Shown here one piece after another: positions 14,448 through 62,822 of a stretch of 64,000 nucleotides of DNA (its first letter is position 1; each line of letters opens with the position of its first letter). The notes beneath the pieces are model-generated. The model saw only the letters and a program-made list of their open reading frames with translations, did no database searches and had not been told where the DNA came from. Both the position numbers and the translations under genes were made by a program. This DNA is from Polaromonas sp. (GTDB lineage Bacteria; Pseudomonadota; Gammaproteobacteria; Burkholderiales; Burkholderiaceae_C): the NCBI GenBank assembly GCA_013297865.1, contig JAAFIP010000007.1, positions 124,001-188,000 of the forward strand, written 5' to 3'.

Positions 14448-14453
14448 AGATTT

Positions 14454-14512
14454 GCTACTGATTTAATAGCTGCCCCCGCGATATTCCATTGGGCTGCAGC
14501 TTGAAAAGGCAT
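14454..14512. repeat. Dispersed repeat copy R1 (intergenic)
   Basis: atttaatagctgcccccgcgatattccattgggctgcagctt. Confidence 0.9.
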
Positions 14513-14969: not shown

Positions 14970-16076
14970 TCACAGGGTGTGGCTGCGGTCACCCTGGCTA
15001 AAACCTATAGGCTCCCAGTCCATGCCTTTGCCGAGCGCCAGCACCTTGAACAGCTCGCCCATCTCATGCTCGTTGACCAGCTTGGCCACCAGCGCACGCT
15101 GCAGCGGCGCCAGCGACTCCATTTTTTGCAGCAGCCCGCAGTTCATCAAAAAGCGCCCCTGGGTGGCGTAGCCTGCCACATCCAGCCCGGCGTCTTGCGC
15201 CGCTAGCGCCACACCGGTGAAATTGACATGGGCGGTGATGTCCTTGAGACCCACTTTGTCCAGCGGGTGGGGGTCGGCTTGGTGCTGGTAGTGGCACATC
15301 ACCGTGCCCATATGGCGCTGGGGATGGTAATACTCTGCCTCGGGAAAGCCATAGTCGATCAGCAGCGCCGCCCCGCGCGACAGATGGGCCGCCAGCGTGC
15401 GTACAAAGCCTTCGGCTTGGGGGTGGATCTCGGTAAGGTAGTCGTGGCTGCCGGCAATCTCGATGGGCGGGCGCAGCTCGCTGGCGCGGTCGTGCCAGGC
15501 CAGGCTGCCATCCTCGCCCAGCACCACCCCGCGCTCATGCCATTGGCCCTGCAGGCGCGCCAGCAGCTTCACGGGCATGGCGTCCAGCACCTCGTTGCCC
15601 ACGATCACGCCTTGCATCTGCTCGGGCAGCGCGTCCAGCCACTGCACGGTGTCGCCCAGTGCAGCCAGCGCCGCTTGCTGGCGCGCGCGCAGCTCGCTGG
15701 AGACTTCGATAATGAAATAGCGCTCCAGCCCAATAGATAATCGCGGGAGCAGCTCACAAATTTGTAGCGCCAAGGCGCCGGTTCCGGCGCCAAACTCGTA
15801 CACGCAGCGCGTTCCGCTGGCCAGCAGCGCCTGCGCCACCTGCTCGCCCACGCACTGGCCGAACAGCGGCGAGAGCTGCGGTGCGGTGACAAAATCGCTG
15901 CCCGATTGGGGCAAGCTGCCAAACTTCTGCGCGCCGTTGGTGTAGTAGCCCAGGCCAGGCGTGTACAGGGCCAAATGCATGAATTGGTCGAACGGCAGCC
16001 AGCCGCCAGCGGCAGTCAGGGCCTCTTTAATGTGCTGGTGCAGCGCGTCCGATACACTTAGTGCTAAATTACTCAC
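14970..16076 (-). CDS. MidA/NDUFAF7-family (COG1565) SAM-dependent methyltransferase
   Basis: ALYTPGLGYYTNGAQKFG...YEFGAGTGALALQI...GNEVLDAMPVKLL; GTG start at 16076 inferred. Confidence 0.85.
   Translation of the reverse strand: MSNLALSVSDALHQHIKEALTAAGGWLPFDQFMHLALYTPGLGYYTNGAQKFGSLPQSGSDFVTAPQLSPLFGQCVGEQVAQALLASGTRCVYEFGAGTGALALQICELLPRLSIGLERYFIIEVSSELRARQQAALAALGDTVQWLDALPEQMQGVIVGNEVLDAMPVKLLARLQGQWHERGVVLGEDGSLAWHDRASELRPPIEIAGSHDYLTEIHPQAEGFVRTLAAHLSRGAALLIDYGFPEAEYYHPQRHMGTVMCHYQHQADPHPLDKVGLKDITAHVNFTGVALAAQDAGLDVAGYATQGRFLMNCGLLQKMESLAPLQRALVAKLVNEHEMGELFKVLALGKGMDWEPIGFSQGDRSHTL
15721..15770. repeat. Dispersed repeat copy R2, inside the methyltransferase CDS
   Basis: ccagcccaatagataatcgcgggagcagct, near-identical to the intergenic copies. 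Confidence 0.88.
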
Positions 16077-16099: not shown

Positions 16100-16864
16100 A
16101 TGTCTGCTTCTGATTTTCCCGTCGTACTGGTGACTGGCGCTGCCAAGCGACTGGGTCGTGACATCGCGCTGTGCCTGGCGCGCGCAGGCTGGCGCGTGGC
16201 GGTGCACTACCGCGGCTCGCACGCGGATGCGCTGCAGACCGCTGCAGACTGCGCGCTGCTGACCGCAGGCAGCCACGCCTTTGCCGCAGACCTGGCCGAT
16301 GAAGAAGCCACCCAGGCATTGCTGCCCCAAGTGGTGCAGCACATGGGCCGCGTGGACGCCGTGGTCAACAGCGCTGCGTTGTTTGAGCATGATGCGCCCG
16401 CCAGCTTCAGCTACCGCGCGCTGGACCAGCATCTGCGTGCCAACACCGGCGCACCGATCCTGCTGGCCCAGGCCCTGCATGCCCATGCGCTGCAGCGCCA
16501 GGGCACGGGCGTGGTGGTCAATCTGCTGGACCAGAAGCTGTGGAACCCCAACCCCGATTTTCTGAGCTACACACTGTCCAAAGCCGCGCTGGAGGCTGCC
16601 AACACGATGCTGGCGATGGCCCTGGCGCCCCAGCTGCGCGTGGTCGGTGTGGCCCCAGGCCTCACCTTGACCAGTCACATGCTCAGCGACGATAAATTCA
16701 AAGCCCTGCATGCGCTCAGCCCGCTGGGCCGAAGCTCCACCCCGCAGGACGTATGCGCCACCGTGCTGTTCGCGCTGACCAACCAGTCCATCACCGGCAC
16801 CACGCTGCTGGTGGACGGCGGGCAGCATCTGATGAAATTTGAGCGCGATTTTTCGCTGATGTAA
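16100..16864 (+). CDS. SDR family oxidoreductase (pteridine reductase/FolM-like)
   Basis: VLVTGAAKRLGRDIALCLARAGWRVAVHYRGS; immediately upstream of folB. Confidence 0.82.
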   Translation: MSASDFPVVLVTGAAKRLGRDIALCLARAGWRVAVHYRGSHADALQTAADCALLTAGSHAFAADLADEEATQALLPQVVQHMGRVDAVVNSAALFEHDAPASFSYRALDQHLRANTGAPILLAQALHAHALQRQGTGVVVNLLDQKLWNPNPDFLSYTLSKAALEAANTMLAMALAPQLRVVGVAPGLTLTSHMLSDDKFKALHALSPLGRSSTPQDVCATVLFALTNQSITGTTLLVDGGQHLMKFERDFSLM

Positions 16865-19563: not shown

Positions 19564-20239
19564 GCCTGTAAGCCATTTTTTACAGCGTTTCGGGGCTCCA
19601 GCCCAGCAGAATATCGCGGGAGCAGCTATTAAATATGTAGCATACTGCCTCTTGATTCTGGTGGCTTTGCTCCAGCTCACTGGCTGCGCCAGTGTGCGCC
19701 TGATCGACAACGAGGTGAATGCGTTTTCTTCCCTGGGCAGCGGGGCCTCAGGCAGCACGTATCGCTTTGAGCGCCTGCCCTCTCAGCAGGCCAACCCCCA
19801 GCGCCAGGACCAGCTCGAAGCCATTGCCCAGGCCGCGATGACCAAGGTGGGCTTGGTGCGGGTGGGTGACGCGCCTGGCAGCCCGGCCGCGCGCTACAGC
19901 GTGCAGATGGGCATCAACGAAAGCCTGGGCACCGATCCGTGGGACGACGGCCCGCGTTTTAGCGGCTTCATCGGCATTGGCAGCGGCATCGGGCGGCGCG
20001 GCTTTGGGCATATCGGCTACGGTTTCCCCTACTTTCCCACGCCCATCTATGTGCGCGATGTGTCCCTGGTATTGCGCGACAGCGCCAGCAACCAGGTGGT
20101 GTTTGAAACCCGAGCCAAACACGAAGGCCCCTGGGTCGACACGCTGGCCGTGCTGCCCGCCATGTTCGATGCCGCGCTGCAGGGCTTTCCTGCGCCTGCT
20201 GCAGGTTTGCGGCGGGTCAGCATCGAAATTCCGCGCTGA
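19544..20239 (+). CDS. DUF4136-like lipoprotein (start uncertain)
   Basis: [16 protein letters not shown] lipobox; N-terminus overlaps a dispersed repeat and the 3' end of ttcA. Confidence 0.65.
19598..19634. repeat. Dispersed repeat copy R3
   Basis: ccagcccagcagaatatcgcgggagcagctattaaat. Confidence 0.92.
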
Positions 20240-20287
20240 GCGTCTGCCGCGGCTTGCTCTGGCCGTATTTTTCAGTCTTTGAGGCTG

Positions 20288-20324
20288 CCAGCCCAGTAGA
20301 ATATCGCGGGAGCAGCTATTAAAT
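20288..20324. repeat. Dispersed repeat copy R4, directly upstream of the phosphatase gene
   Basis: ccagcccagtagaatatcgcgggagcagctattaaat. Confidence 0.92.
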
Positions 20325-20332
20325 TAAGAGCA

Positions 20333-20983
20333 ATGAACATCACCCGCATCACCGCCATCCGCCACGGCGAAACCGCCTGGAACGTGGACACCCGCATCCA
20401 GGGCCAGCTGGATATCGGCCTGAACGCCAAAGGCCGCTGGCAGGCCGAGCGCGCCGGGGCGGCGCTGGCGGGCGACGATATCGATGCGGTGTACAGCAGC
20501 GATCTCTGGCGTGCCTACGACACCGCCCTCTCGGTGGCCAAGCCGCATGGCCTCAATGTGCAGACCGACGAGGCGCTGCGTGAGCGGGGCTTTGGTGAGT
20601 TTGAAGGCAAAACCTTTGCCGAGATCGAAACCAGCCTGCCCGAGCAGGCCCTGCAGTGGCGCAAGCGCGTGCCCGATTTTGCGCCCCCCGGCGGCGAATC
20701 TCTGCTGCACCTGCGTGAGAGGGTGCTGCAGTGTGTTCACAAGCTGGCCAGTCAACACACCGGCCAGCACATCGCCATCGTCAGCCACGGCGGCGTGATG
20801 GACGTGCTCTACCGGGCAGCCACCGGCCTGGAGCTGCAGGCCGCCCGCACCTGGGACCTGCACAACGCCGCCATCAATCGGCTGCTGTGGAACGGCGAGC
20901 ACTTGAGCTTGGTGGGGTGGGCCGATGTCTCCCATATCGACGACGCTGCTTTTGACGCAAGCCGGGATGAAACTTCTGCCTAG
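20333..20983 (+). CDS. Histidine phosphatase (phosphoglycerate mutase) family protein
   Basis: AIRHGETAWNVDTRIQGQLDIGLNAKG. Confidence 0.9.
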   Translation: MNITRITAIRHGETAWNVDTRIQGQLDIGLNAKGRWQAERAGAALAGDDIDAVYSSDLWRAYDTALSVAKPHGLNVQTDEALRERGFGEFEGKTFAEIETSLPEQALQWRKRVPDFAPPGGESLLHLRERVLQCVHKLASQHTGQHIAIVSHGGVMDVLYRAATGLELQAARTWDLHNAAINRLLWNGEHLSLVGWADVSHIDDAAFDASRDETSA

Positions 20984-22186: not shown

Positions 22187-23344
22187 ATGGACACACCGCA
22201 GTATCCGCACGTCAGCAGTATCGACACGCCTGCGCTGGTGATTGATCTGGATGCGATGCAGCGCAATCTGCAGCGCATGCAGCAGTTCGCCGATCAGCAC
22301 GGCGTGCGCCTGCGTCCGCACGCCAAGATGCACAAGTCAGCGGTGCTGGCGCTGCAGCAGATCAGCGCAGGCGCAGTCGGCGTCTGTGTGCAAAAGCCTT
22401 CCGAAGCCGCGGCCATGGTGGCCGGGGGTGTAAAGAACGTATATGTCAGCAATGAAGTCATTGCGCTATCAAAATGTGAGCTGCTCGCGCGATTGAATAG
22501 TGGGCTGGCGGTCCAAAACGGCCGTATTTCTGTGGCCGTGGACAGCCTGCTGGGCATTGAGCGCATGGCCCAGGCGATGGAGAGCCTTGGCGCTCAAGCT
22601 GCCGCCTCAGCGCCGATGGATGTGTATGTGGAGATTGACGTGGGCCAGGGCCGCTGCGGTGTGCCGCCTGGCATGGCAGCGCTGGCGCTGGTGCTGGCGA
22701 TCTCACAACGCAGTTGCCTGCGTTTTGCGGGCCTGCAGGCCTACCACGGCCGCGCCCAGCACCTGCGCACGGCCGCCGAGCGGCGCGCGGCCATTGCCCA
22801 GGTGGTGCAGCAGGTGCAGCACACCAAAGCGGCGCTGGAGGCCGCGGGCATCAGTGTGCCCCTGGTGACAGGTGCTGGCACCGGCACGTTCATGCACGAG
22901 GCGGCCAGTGGCGTGTACGGCGAGCTGCAGGCAGGCTCTTATCTGTTCATGGATGCAGACTACGCCGCCAACCAGGCCGACCCTGCGCAGCTGCAGTTTG
23001 AGCACGCGCTGTTTGTCAAATCCACCGTCATCAGCCGCAGCAGCACCGCTACCGACGATCGCGCAGTAGTAGACGCAGGCCACAAAAGCCATGCCATCGA
23101 CTCGGGCCTGCCCATCCCCTGGGCAGGGCATGGCGCAGACTGGGTGTTCAGCAACGGTGGGGACGAACACGGTATCCTGCGCGGCAGCCACCTGCCCGAG
23201 CTGGGCGACACGGTCTGGCTGGTGCCCGGCCACTGCGACCCCACGGTCAACCTGCACAACCAGATGGTGGGCGTGCGCGGCGGCCTGGCCGATGGCTATG
23301 TGGAGCGCATCATCACCGTAGATGCCCGGGGTGCGTTGACCTAG
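22187..23344 (+). CDS. DSD1-family PLP enzyme (D-threonine aldolase/alanine racemase-like)
   Basis: IDTPALVIDLDAMQRNLQRMQ...RLRPHAKMHKS. Confidence 0.85.
   Translation: MDTPQYPHVSSIDTPALVIDLDAMQRNLQRMQQFADQHGVRLRPHAKMHKSAVLALQQISAGAVGVCVQKPSEAAAMVAGGVKNVYVSNEVIALSKCELLARLNSGLAVQNGRISVAVDSLLGIERMAQAMESLGAQAAASAPMDVYVEIDVGQGRCGVPPGMAALALVLAISQRSCLRFAGLQAYHGRAQHLRTAAERRAAIAQVVQQVQHTKAALEAAGISVPLVTGAGTGTFMHEAASGVYGELQAGSYLFMDADYAANQADPAQLQFEHALFVKSTVISRSSTATDDRAVVDAGHKSHAIDSGLPIPWAGHGADWVFSNGGDEHGILRGSHLPELGDTVWLVPGHCDPTVNLHNQMVGVRGGLADGYVERIITVDARGALT
22464..22518. repeat. Dispersed repeat copy R9 (diverged), inside the DSD1-family CDS
   Basis: gctatcaaaatgtgagctgctcgcgcgattgaatagtgggctggcggtccaaaac; about 24/30 core identity plus matching flanks. 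Confidence 0.65.
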
Positions 23345-30834: not shown

Positions 30835-31761
30835 TTGATTATTCGCCACATTTTCTCTCCCAGCAACAATACCCGTATTGGCCACCTGTGCGGCCCTACC
30901 GATGAAAACCTGCGCCGTATCGAACAGGCACTGGGTGTGAAGATTGCCCACCGCCATGAGCAGTTCAAGGTGGACGGCCCCAAGGCGGCAGCCACGCGCG
31001 GCATGGAGCTTTTGCAGGCACTGTATGAGATAGCGGCCCGCCCCATCAGCCTGGAAACCCTGCAGCTGATGCTGGCGGGAGACGGCGACATGCTGGGCAC
31101 CGACAGCGCAGGCCTGCAAACCCGCCGCGCTGACCTGCGCGCCCGCACGCCCAACCAGGCCACCTACCTGGACAATATCGCCCAGCACGACATCACCTTT
31201 GGCATTGGCCCGGCGGGCACCGGCAAAACCTATCTGGCAGTGGCCAGCGCGGTGGACGCGCTGGAGCGCAGCGGCGTGCAGCGCATTGTGCTGACGCGCC
31301 CAGCCGTGGAGGCAGGCGAGCGCCTGGGCTTTTTGCCGGGCGACCTGACGCAAAAGGTAGACCCCTATCTGCGCCCGCTGTATGACGCGCTGTACGAGCT
31401 GATGGGGGTGGACAAAGTGCTCAAGGCTTTTGAGCGCCAGCAGATCGAGATTGCGCCCCTGGCCTTCATGCGCGGGCGCACGCTCAACCACAGCTTTATC
31501 ATTCTGGACGAAGCGCAGAACACCACGCCCGAGCAGATGAAAATGTTTTTGACCCGCATTGGCTTTGCCAGCAAGGCGGTGGTGACCGGCGATGTGAGCC
31601 AGATCGACCTGCCGCACGAACAGACCAGCGGCCTGGTGGAGGCTGACCAGGTGCTGCGGCGCGTGCAGGGTATCGCCCACAGCCGCTTTACCAGCGCCGA
31701 CGTGGTGCGCCACCCGCTGGTGGCGCGCATTGTGGACGCCTACGAAGCAGCCAAGAAGTAA
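30835..31761 (+). CDS. PhoH family protein
   Basis: [16 protein letters not shown]...[37 protein letters not shown] start. Confidence 0.93.
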
Positions 31762-31763
31762 AC

Positions 31764-31814
31764 GCTATACAAAATATAGCTGCTCCCGCGATATTTTAAA
31801 GGGCTAGAGCCTGA
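31764..31814. repeat. Dispersed repeat copy R5, between phoH and ybeY
   Basis: gctatacaaaatatagctgctcccgcgatattttaaagggctagagcctga. Confidence 0.88.
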
Positions 31815-32909: not shown

Positions 32910-32930
32910 TTTTGAATGCATTTTAGGCCG

Positions 32931-32967
32931 CCAGCCCAATAGAATATCGCGGGAGCAGCTATTAAAT
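32931..32967. repeat. Dispersed repeat copy R6, between convergent genes
   Basis: ccagcccaatagaatatcgcgggagcagctattaaat (used here as consensus). Confidence 0.93.
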
Positions 32968-32991
32968 CTATAGTGAATGAATTGGCATCCG

Positions 32992-58612: not shown

Positions 58613-60484
58613 CTAGCCCGAGCGCGCAGTGTTGTCGTGCAGATCTTTTTCGGGGCGCACGGCGATGGCATCGGGGTCCAGCAGCGTCACAGCGCGCTCC
58701 TGCGCCATCAGCTCCTCTAGCTGCTTGCGGCCCGCACGGGCGATGCTGATCAGGCGCTCTTCATCTTGGTGGTGCGGCCAGGCGGTCTCGATCTGGGCCA
58801 GATTGTGGGAGCGAAAGCGCTGCGCTGCCACATGGGCATCGGCCGCGCTGTGGCCCAGCACCTGCAGCACATCCTCGGCGCTCAGCAGAGACGACTCAAA
58901 CGTTTCGCGCTGGATCAGCGTAACGCCCTTGGCACGCAGCTGGTAGTAGTGCTGCACATTGCGCGCCCGTACCACGAGCTGCAGATTGGGAAAATGCGTT
59001 TGGCAGATGTCTACGATTTCCAGCGACTGCTCCATATTGTCAATCGCTACTATCAGCACTTTGGCCGTGGCCGCGCCTGCCGTGCGCAGCAGGTCCAGCC
59101 GGGTGGCGTCGCCATAAAACCCGCGGTAGCCAAAACGTATCAGGCCTGTCACCTGCTCGGCATCATGGTCCAGCACCGTAGCCTTGTAGCCATTGGCAGA
59201 CAAGATGCGCAGGATGATCTGTCCATAGCGGCCGATGCCGGCCACGATGATGGGTGAAGTTTGCTGCTCACTGATCTCCTCCATCTGGGTCGCGCTGCAC
59301 AGCGCATAGCGCGGCAGCAGCAGCTTGTCGATAGCCACCAGCAGCAAGGGCGAGAGCAGCATCGACAGCGCCACTGCGCCCACCAGCATCGAGCCGACTT
59401 CGGGTGTGAAAATCTTCAGGCCCACCGCCTGCTGAAAGACTACAAAAGCGAACTCGCCGCCTTGCGCCAGCATGAGCGTGAAAATCGGTCGCTCCTGATA
59501 GGCCAGCTTCATGGCCCGCGCCAGGGTGTAGATCACCGCCGCCTTGAGCAGCATAAAAGCCAGCACGATGCCAGCGATCAGCCAGGGCGACTGCAGCAGC
59601 ACGCCAAAGTCAATGCTCATGCCCACTGCAATAAAAAACAAGCCCAGCAGCAGGCCTTTGAAGGGCTCAATATCGGTTTCCAGCTCGCGGCGGTATTCGC
59701 TCTCTGCCAGCAGCACCCCCGCCAGAAACGCCCCAAGCGCCATCGACAGGCCCACAAACTGCATTAGCGCGGCAATCGCTACCACCAGCAGTAAGGCGGC
59801 TGCCGTAAAAATCTCTGGCGTCTTGCTGCGCGCAATCCAGCGAAACAGTGGCCGCATCAGCAGCCTGCCGCCGACAATGATGGCCCCAATCGCGCCAACC
59901 GCCTTGGCCGCTTCCAGCCAGGCGTTAGCATCGTTTTCAGCGCCTTGGGCGGCCAACAGGGGCAGCAAAGCCAGGATGGGGATGGCGGCCACGTCCTGAA
60001 ACAGCAAAATCGCAAAGGCAGACTGGCCTGAGGGTGTACTGAGCTGGTTGCGCTCTCCCAGCACCTGCAGGGCGATGGCGGTGGACGACAGCGCCAGGCC
60101 CAGCGAGGCTACCAGCAGCACTTTCCATGTATGATTTGTGCCGCTAACCCAATAGAATATCGCGGTGGCAGCTATCAATAAAATAGCACTACAGGAGAGT
60201 ACCTGCAGCGAACCCCAGCCAAAAATCGGCCGCCGCATGCTCCACAGCCGCTCGGGTTCGAGCTCCAGCCCCACCAGAAACAGCATCAGCACCACGCCAA
60301 ATTCGGCAAAATGCAAAATGCTCTGCACATCGGTCACCAGCCCCAGCCCCCAGGGCCCAATGGCAATGCCAGCGGCCAGGTAGCCAATGATAGAGCCCAG
60401 GCCCAGGGCCTTGGACAGCGGCACCACCACCACCGCAGCGGCCAGGTAAATGAGGGAATTGGTCAGCCAAGAAGAGTGTTCCAT
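58613..60484 (-). CDS. Monovalent cation:proton antiporter-2 (KefB/KefC-like) with RCK/TrkA-N domain
   Basis: CPA2 TM region (GFG-type FGVVLMLFLVGLELEPERLW) and IVAGIGRYGQIILRILSANGYKATVLDHDAEQV. Confidence 0.92.
   Translation of the reverse strand: MEHSSWLTNSLIYLAAAVVVVPLSKALGLGSIIGYLAAGIAIGPWGLGLVTDVQSILHFAEFGVVLMLFLVGLELEPERLWSMRRPIFGWGSLQVLSCSAILLIAATAIFYWVSGTNHTWKVLLVASLGLALSSTAIALQVLGERNQLSTPSGQSAFAILLFQDVAAIPILALLPLLAAQGAENDANAWLEAAKAVGAIGAIIVGGRLLMRPLFRWIARSKTPEIFTAAALLLVVAIAALMQFVGLSMALGAFLAGVLLAESEYRRELETDIEPFKGLLLGLFFIAVGMSIDFGVLLQSPWLIAGIVLAFMLLKAAVIYTLARAMKLAYQERPIFTLMLAQGGEFAFVVFQQAVGLKIFTPEVGSMLVGAVALSMLLSPLLLVAIDKLLLPRYALCSATQMEEISEQQTSPIIVAGIGRYGQIILRILSANGYKATVLDHDAEQVTGLIRFGYRGFYGDATRLDLLRTAGAATAKVLIVAIDNMEQSLEIVDICQTHFPNLQLVVRARNVQHYYQLRAKGVTLIQRETFESSLLSAEDVLQVLGHSAADAHVAAQRFRSHNLAQIETAWPHHQDEERLISIARAGRKQLEELMAQERAVTLLDPDAIAVRPEKDLHDNTARSG
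60144..60190. repeat. Dispersed repeat copy R7, inside the KefB-like CDS
   Basis: ctaacccaatagaatatcgcggtggcagctatcaat, about 26/30 core identity. Confidence 0.85.
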
Positions 60485-62721: not shown

Positions 62722-62770
62722 TGGTCAAGCCAGCATAGCAGATACTCCAGGCAACTGCGGCAATAGTAGA

Positions 62771-62822
62771 CGCTATATTTTTAATAGCTGCTCCCGCGAT
62801 ATTCTATTGGCCTGCAGGCTTA
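62771..62822. repeat. Dispersed repeat copy R8 (intergenic)
   Basis: cgctatatttttaatagctgctcccgcgatattctattggcctgcaggctta. Confidence 0.92.

Follow-up and report, generated by a model that had tools for sequence, protein, structure and literature searches.

Rickettsia is, to our knowledge, the main source of known translated repeats, which have been described there as insertions. The palindromic elements of that genus (RPEs) have a length of about 150 bp and add residues in frame; a review of MITEs (PMC10969869, which cites Ogata et al. 2000 and 2002) describes them. Like the element studied here, they are short interspersed repeats located in intergenic regions and, with unusual frequency, in frame within unrelated conserved genes. 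In-gene copies are likewise on record for the enterobacterial RU (PMC2759123) and for BRE, a repeat of about 90 bp and 69% GC that is often tandem and that resembles the present element in being betaproteobacterial, in occurring also in Comamonadaceae and in having some copies entirely within coding sequences (PMC3110155). The DUS of the Neisseriaceae comprise only 10-12 bases and exist in dialects that differ at few bases; their occurrence at many sites inside and outside genes, in lineage-specific versions that follow phylogeny and with stop codons limiting the frames, again has its counterpart here (PMC3630211). The same can be said of the REP sequences with their RAYT/TnpA-REP proteins, which are high-copy, mostly extragenic and enriched downstream of genes (PMC8266576, PMC3733652, PMC2817692). 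RPEs (as in-frame palindromes), the DUS dialects and REP/RAYT are the closest known systems, and the element fully fits none of them.

The window, by which is meant the whole 64-kb stretch of DNA that was analysed, holds nine copies of an interspersed repeat with the consensus TTGCTATAAATTTAATAGCTGCTCCCGCGATATTCTATTGGGCTGGAGGCCT (Table 1). The copy of principal concern lies in a MidA-like SAM methyltransferase gene, where the minus strand reads GCGCTACAAATTTGTGAGCTGCTCCCGCGATTATCTATTGGGCTGGAGCGCTAT and the codons GCG CTA CAA ATT TGT GAG CTG CTC CCG CGA TTA TCT ATT GGG CTG GAG CGC TAT encode ALQICELLPRLSIGLERY, preceded by GAGTGALA and followed by FIIEVSSELRARQQ. The ORF is uninterrupted across the copy, bearing out the proposal of an earlier note that a repeat of the intergenic type is read in frame here; the same note had remarked on how few changes separate the copy from the consensus, and against the family consensus AGCTGCTCCCGCGATATTCTATTGGGCTGGAG there are indeed only two in the 32-base core (AT to TA). 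In the profile search of the larger sample described below, the copy scored 36.1 bits and fell entirely within the gene. The predicted structure of the protein matches 4g67 and 4f3n in fold (TM 0.92 and 0.90, respectively) and has a pLDDT of about 95 at the repeat segment, which is predicted to form, as the earlier note had expected, a helix (residues 101-112) placed after the SAM-binding glycine motif and a loop (113-118) that precedes the next strand.

Table 1. Copies of the repeat in the 64-kb window and two of the genes that carry them
Feature	Position	Strand	Evidence and context
MidA-like SAM methyltransferase gene, 368 aa, repeat carrier	14970-16076	-	PF02636 184 bits; PDB 4f3n E 7e-110
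Repeat copy within the MidA-like gene	15719-15769	-	nhmmer 41.7 bits, E 4.4e-12 in window; frame same strand, phase 1; MidA residues 103-119
Intergenic-type copy	14451-14501	+	nhmmer 56.5 bits
Intergenic copy	19593-19643	-	nhmmer 56.6 bits
Intergenic-type copy	20283-20333	-	nhmmer 55.6 bits
Alanine-racemase-N/D-Ser dehydratase-like gene, host of the copy at 22464-22512	22187-23344		Pfam
In-frame copy (LSKCELLARLNSGLA; CELLARLNSGL), degenerate, in MidA's frame	22464-22512	+	nhmmer 13.4 bits
Copy at 3' side of gene 30835-31761	31762-31813	+	nhmmer 45.5 bits; gene context
Intergenic-type copy	32925-32977	-	nhmmer 61.5 bits
In-frame copy (SAILLIAATAIFYWVSG, phase 2)	60139-60189	-	nhmmer 44.5 bits; within Na/H exchanger-TrkA_N gene 58613-60484 (Pfam)
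Intergenic-type copy	62769-62821	+	nhmmer 61.0 bits

A 15-base core, searched with at most one mismatch, returned 572 matches in the 4.0 Mb Comamonadaceae genome and none for the reversed control. With this many core matches against 0 for the backwards pattern, a chance match is excluded as the source of the MidA copy, and so is native resemblance. A native stretch of MidA with a likeness to the repeat that arose by chance or from convergence at the protein level would accord with outgroups that keep a helix of equal length (ALALQxLxxLxxxGxxxxRYTIVD), but it is refuted by the match statistics and its probability is close to nil: 40 of the 48 bases are identical to those of the 572-copy repeat, compared with a mean of 12.5 at the other in-frame positions of the gene, and the DNA of outgroups at the site stays near background (14.4 vs 12.1 consensus matches).

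The conserved unit spans about 50 bases and consists of a left arm and a core of 24-27 bases, with a consensus of 44% GC that contains CTAT-N7-ATAGC and a weak second stem. A hairpin was ruled out as a conserved feature, the consensus folding no better than shuffles (z -0.19), and the tag is ATAG in most copies and GTAG in a minority only. The element therefore differs from the palindromic RPEs of about 150 bp in both length and folding, and from REP sequences in having neither a strong hairpin nor a fixed GTAG/CGTC tag. In the sample described below, the spacing of copies is more regular than that of a random distribution (CV 0.81), and gaps of less than 500 bases make up 1.3% compared to the 9.2% expected. 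BRE, taken from its published description, was considered as an identity for the element and judged different on length, GC content and tandem habit, the present repeat being shorter, poorer in GC and not tandem, with short gaps rarer than chance. An Rfam search of the whole window gave no match at the gathering score, and assignment to a known RNA family was rejected, while a literature search by the repeat sequence did not find the cores of the element in print in the papers covered. The general form CTAT-N7-ATAGCTGCTNSCGC was looked for in 37 genomes of Comamonadaceae, 14 of which have it, and in 24 from other families of the Burkholderiales, where it was absent throughout. A search for relatives returned no other genome of the source organism's genus.

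As in the REP/RAYT systems, the genome has a single Y1 transposase-like gene (G000:C12:185248-185589, locus L271), and a copy of the repeat lies some 650 bases from it; the sister genus discussed below likewise has one such gene. Y1_Tnp is present in 14/14 repeat-positive genomes and also in most repeat-negative Comamonadaceae. In contrast to REP/RAYT, many relatives lacking the repeat have a RAYT-like gene as well, and since most repeat-poor relatives have it too, the Y1 transposase is only a candidate for the mover of the repeat. We know of no REP that has been described as a translated, dialect-tracking element.

In-gene copies were surveyed in 1.264 Mb stitched from the genome, about a third of it and including the window, with copies located by profile search and genes predicted by a home-made caller based on codon usage. 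This sample yielded 238 copies compared to 1 in the reversed control, distributed as 132 intergenic copies, 37 that straddle the boundary of a gene (the 3' end in 26 cases and the 5' end in 11) and 69 wholly within predicted genes. With 69 of the 238 sampled copies wholly within genes, in-frame copies are common in this genome, and the rarity that the earlier note ascribed to them outside Rickettsia does not extend to it; for this high-copy betaproteobacterial repeat, the share of copies in frame within genes is about three in ten. Intergenic copies favour the gaps between convergent genes (40/128 vs 73/605 gaps) and avoid those between divergent genes (10/128 vs 135/605 gaps). Ten carrier genes that were checked are clear by Pfam, two of them in the window (the D-Ser dehydratase-like gene and the Na/H exchanger) and the others encoding a methylmalonyl-CoA mutase/MeaB fusion, the cobalamin-dependent methionine synthase (MetH), Lnt, Tex, methionyl-tRNA synthetase (MetG), UvrC, a carboxyl transferase and an alpha/beta hydrolase. 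Together with orthologs, the Pfam matches show that the repeat-carrying genes are real.

All six readings of the repeat are used by in-gene copies, the commonest being the opposite-strand phase 2 peptide (33/65). Read in that frame, the intergenic consensus has one stop, and MidA's frame contains three of them. The triplet CTA, a stop on the other strand, occurs in none of the 33 opposite-strand phase 2 copies within genes, in comparison to 82/128 intergenic copies (P=8e-13), and TAG at the left-arm anchor occurs in 0/7 copies in MidA's frame compared to 126/128 intergenic copies. This loss of stops shows a tailoring of in-gene copies to their frames and falls short of proving translation, because in-gene calling already requires an open frame. 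In the proportion of copies within genes and in the removal of stops frame by frame, the element is again like the RPEs, which the earlier note had invoked: the likeness is apt as an analogy, and by the features tested the element falls outside the RPE family. It occurs in a betaproteobacterial family, its copies within genes follow genus-specific dialects, and its copy in MidA replaces residues without a change in length, where an RPE adds them, although the copy in MetH (C6_40939, locus L241:364-3156:-) does insert 20 residues in frame relative to the relative G005. That genome had been considered as a repeat-free outgroup and was rejected as such, for it has a third version of the repeat as its own dialect.

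The closest MidA proteins, L061, L062 and L063, share 67-71% identity with that of the window and come from one sister genus (two of the three source genomes are MAGs). At the repeat site they read ALQICEHLxQISxxLExYFIIEISSELR (ALQLCEHL in L063), and in a tree of MidA from which both repeat sites were removed they form one clade with the protein of the window (support 100/100). Other Comamonadaceae have a helix of equal length at the site, ALALQxLxxLxxxGxxxxRYTIVDLS, and the alignment over the repeat is free of gaps against Burkholderia 4f3n (LLTALAALGVELDEYAIVDLS) and many Comamonadaceae. The possibility that orthologs in genomes without the repeat might carry the same amino acids, raised in the earlier note, was not borne out, similar residues being found only in L061, L062 and L063, all from the genus that carries a repeat version of its own. 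From these alignments, the repeat appears to have replaced a segment of MidA without lengthening the protein and before the two genera split, a replacement rather than an insertion because the alignment to 4f3n is gap-free, and one that would predate the split because the sister genus has the copy at the same codons. The left part of the segment may be native, given that some Rhodoferax-like outgroups have GCGCTACAAATTTTG at the site without the core.

The earlier note had instead taken the copy for a recently acquired insertion. An RPE-like jump of a mobile repeat into MidA in this lineage, adding an in-frame peptide, would account for a near-consensus core within a coding gene and has a parallel in the true in-frame insertion of the family in MetH, but MidA has gained no residues relative to 4f3n and many Comamonadaceae, and the copy at the same codons in the sister genus mostly refutes the idea for this gene, leaving it very improbable.

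The repeat of the sister genus has the dialect ACTATAAATTTAATAGCACTCCGCGCAGTTTCTATGCCGGCGAAATG and numbers about 290 copies per Mb; it keeps the CTAT-N7-ATAGC left arm and has a different core, such that the two dialects differ at most core positions and TTCTAT is displaced by one base. The comparison of the two genera covered 0.55 Mb of the sister genus and the 1.26 Mb sampled here, which provided 145 ortholog pairs with a median identity of 71.5%. Of the in-gene pair-sites in this genome, 14 could be compared, and 13 of them are matched by a sister copy that occupies the same codons and points the same way; 18 further pair-sites have a copy on the sister side alone, and at least two of these (the C-terminus of MidA and an SDR gene) look like older copies that have degraded here. 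The dialect of the genome itself outscores the other at all 13 shared pair-sites, located in 10 genes, and does so in both directions, the mean scores for own and other dialect being 36.1 and 6.9 bits in this genome and 29.7 and 3.8 bits in the sister genus. Genome-wide, the own dialect gives the best score for 236/238 copies here and 161/161 in the sister genus, and in these lineage dialects the element resembles the DUS. The mutase serves as an example (NPALAQQIIAGAATKKGAIPVIGITG here vs KVPLAGVLSAQTATKKIAIPVIGITG in the sister genus), as does a second pair (QAPGQWNIAGAAIENIAF vs QHVAGIDTAQSAIDLIVF) and the second carrier gene of the window, at 22187-23344 (LSKCELLARLNSGL vs LSKCEHLAQILRR), the sister ortholog of which has LSKCEHLAQI at the matching place in its own dialect (27.4 bits). 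The sister MidA copies match their own dialect weakly (23.4, 14.0 and 6.5 bits); MidA taken by itself gives a thin dialect match in L061, and the claim is carried by the other sites.

The two parts of the unit behave differently in these comparisons. The left arms of orthologous in-gene copies agree at 12.2 of 17 bases compared to 8.4 in mismatched pairs, above the highest of 5000 permutations (10.8), an agreement that may in part be protein constraint, the arms being in coding sequence. Orthologous in-gene cores agree at 10.1 of 24 bases vs 9.6 for unrelated copies, a value reached by 246 of 5000 permutations, and at 12 syntenic intergenic sites no orthology signal was detected in the left arms (10.3 vs 10.3). 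The pattern indicates that the site is ancestral and the core is not, each lineage having its own version at shared sites both inside and outside genes. Were the site instead a target at which each genus had separately received a copy in its own dialect, orthologous cores hardly closer than random pairs and intergenic arms without an orthology signal would be expected, as observed; yet place and orientation coincide at nearly all comparable in-gene pair-sites, a coincidence within 20 bases would arise by chance at less than 1% per site at the copy density of the sister genus, and the in-gene left arms agree, down to the unusual TGTGAGC. Independent acquisition is on these grounds improbable.

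The best explanation, to which we assign a probability of about 0.78, is that the MidA segment is an old, inherited and translated repeat whose core has been kept in step with the dialect of its genome, by conversion or by motif drive. A short interspersed repeat spread throughout the Comamonadaceae would have taken the place of the helix-loop segment of MidA before the split, leaving the length of the protein unchanged, and would then have passed down vertically, tolerated by the protein and with its frame kept open by substitution of the repeat bases that make stops. After the split, the 24-base cores of the MidA copy, of the other in-gene copies and of the extragenic copies would have been aligned to the dialect of their own genome. 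The process responsible is inferred, the most likely candidates being a conversion-like replacement by another copy of the family and a sequence-specific drive or selection acting on the core at the DNA level. Replacement is slightly preferred to a drive that proceeds base by base: most core positions differ between the dialects, TTCTAT has moved by one base, and true insertions occur among the copies.

Under motif drive, the core would be recognized by a protein that binds DNA or takes it up, with all sites changing base by base as the specificity of that protein changes, by analogy with DUS dialects. It is a sub-case of how cores might stay in step and is thus compatible with the inherited-repeat explanation; the purity of the dialects, the even spacing of copies, the replacement in MidA without indels and the precedent of the DUS dialects (PMC3630211) are all in its favour. 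The core is much longer than a DUS, however, a stepwise path between such different dialects within reading frames would be hard, and true insertions are found among the in-gene copies, with the result that it is possible but doubtful. The element further departs from DUS, which serve in DNA uptake by way of a receptor such as ComP, in having a left arm in addition to its core of 24-27 bases, fewer copies and a bias to the 3' side of genes. A broader and equally tentative proposition is that a sequence-directed process rewrites existing copies in place throughout the genome, conserved genes included, so that the dialect of a lineage would bring new peptides to the same sites; the route could be a homing-like conversion, or single-stranded repeat DNA that anneals at the replication fork.

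Orthologous in-gene copies in two genera with different genome-specific cores make concerted evolution inside coding sequence testable, and the system may show whether dispersed repeats act as selfish elements, serve as functional DNA motifs or combine the two roles. They also call for caution in reading the 'lineage-specific' stretches of conserved enzymes in Comamonadaceae, which may be repeat-derived and not adaptive.

Beyond the MidA copy itself, the C-terminal region of the same protein (residues about 308-332) and the SDR gene at 16100-16864 (+) correspond to dialect copies in the sister genus and other Comamonadaceae (for example L062:3933, L035 and L087), and both sites are degraded beyond recognition in this genome. 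Native sequence resembling the repeat was ruled out for the two, as the outgroup DNA resembles the repeat in other dialects, and by sequence they look like very old, family-wide copies. Elsewhere, in the comparison of C2:68438-69151 (-) with the sister genome G063, the sister repeat copy forms a signal-peptide-like N-terminus (LRFTIQSIALCAVLMPATALFAQE).
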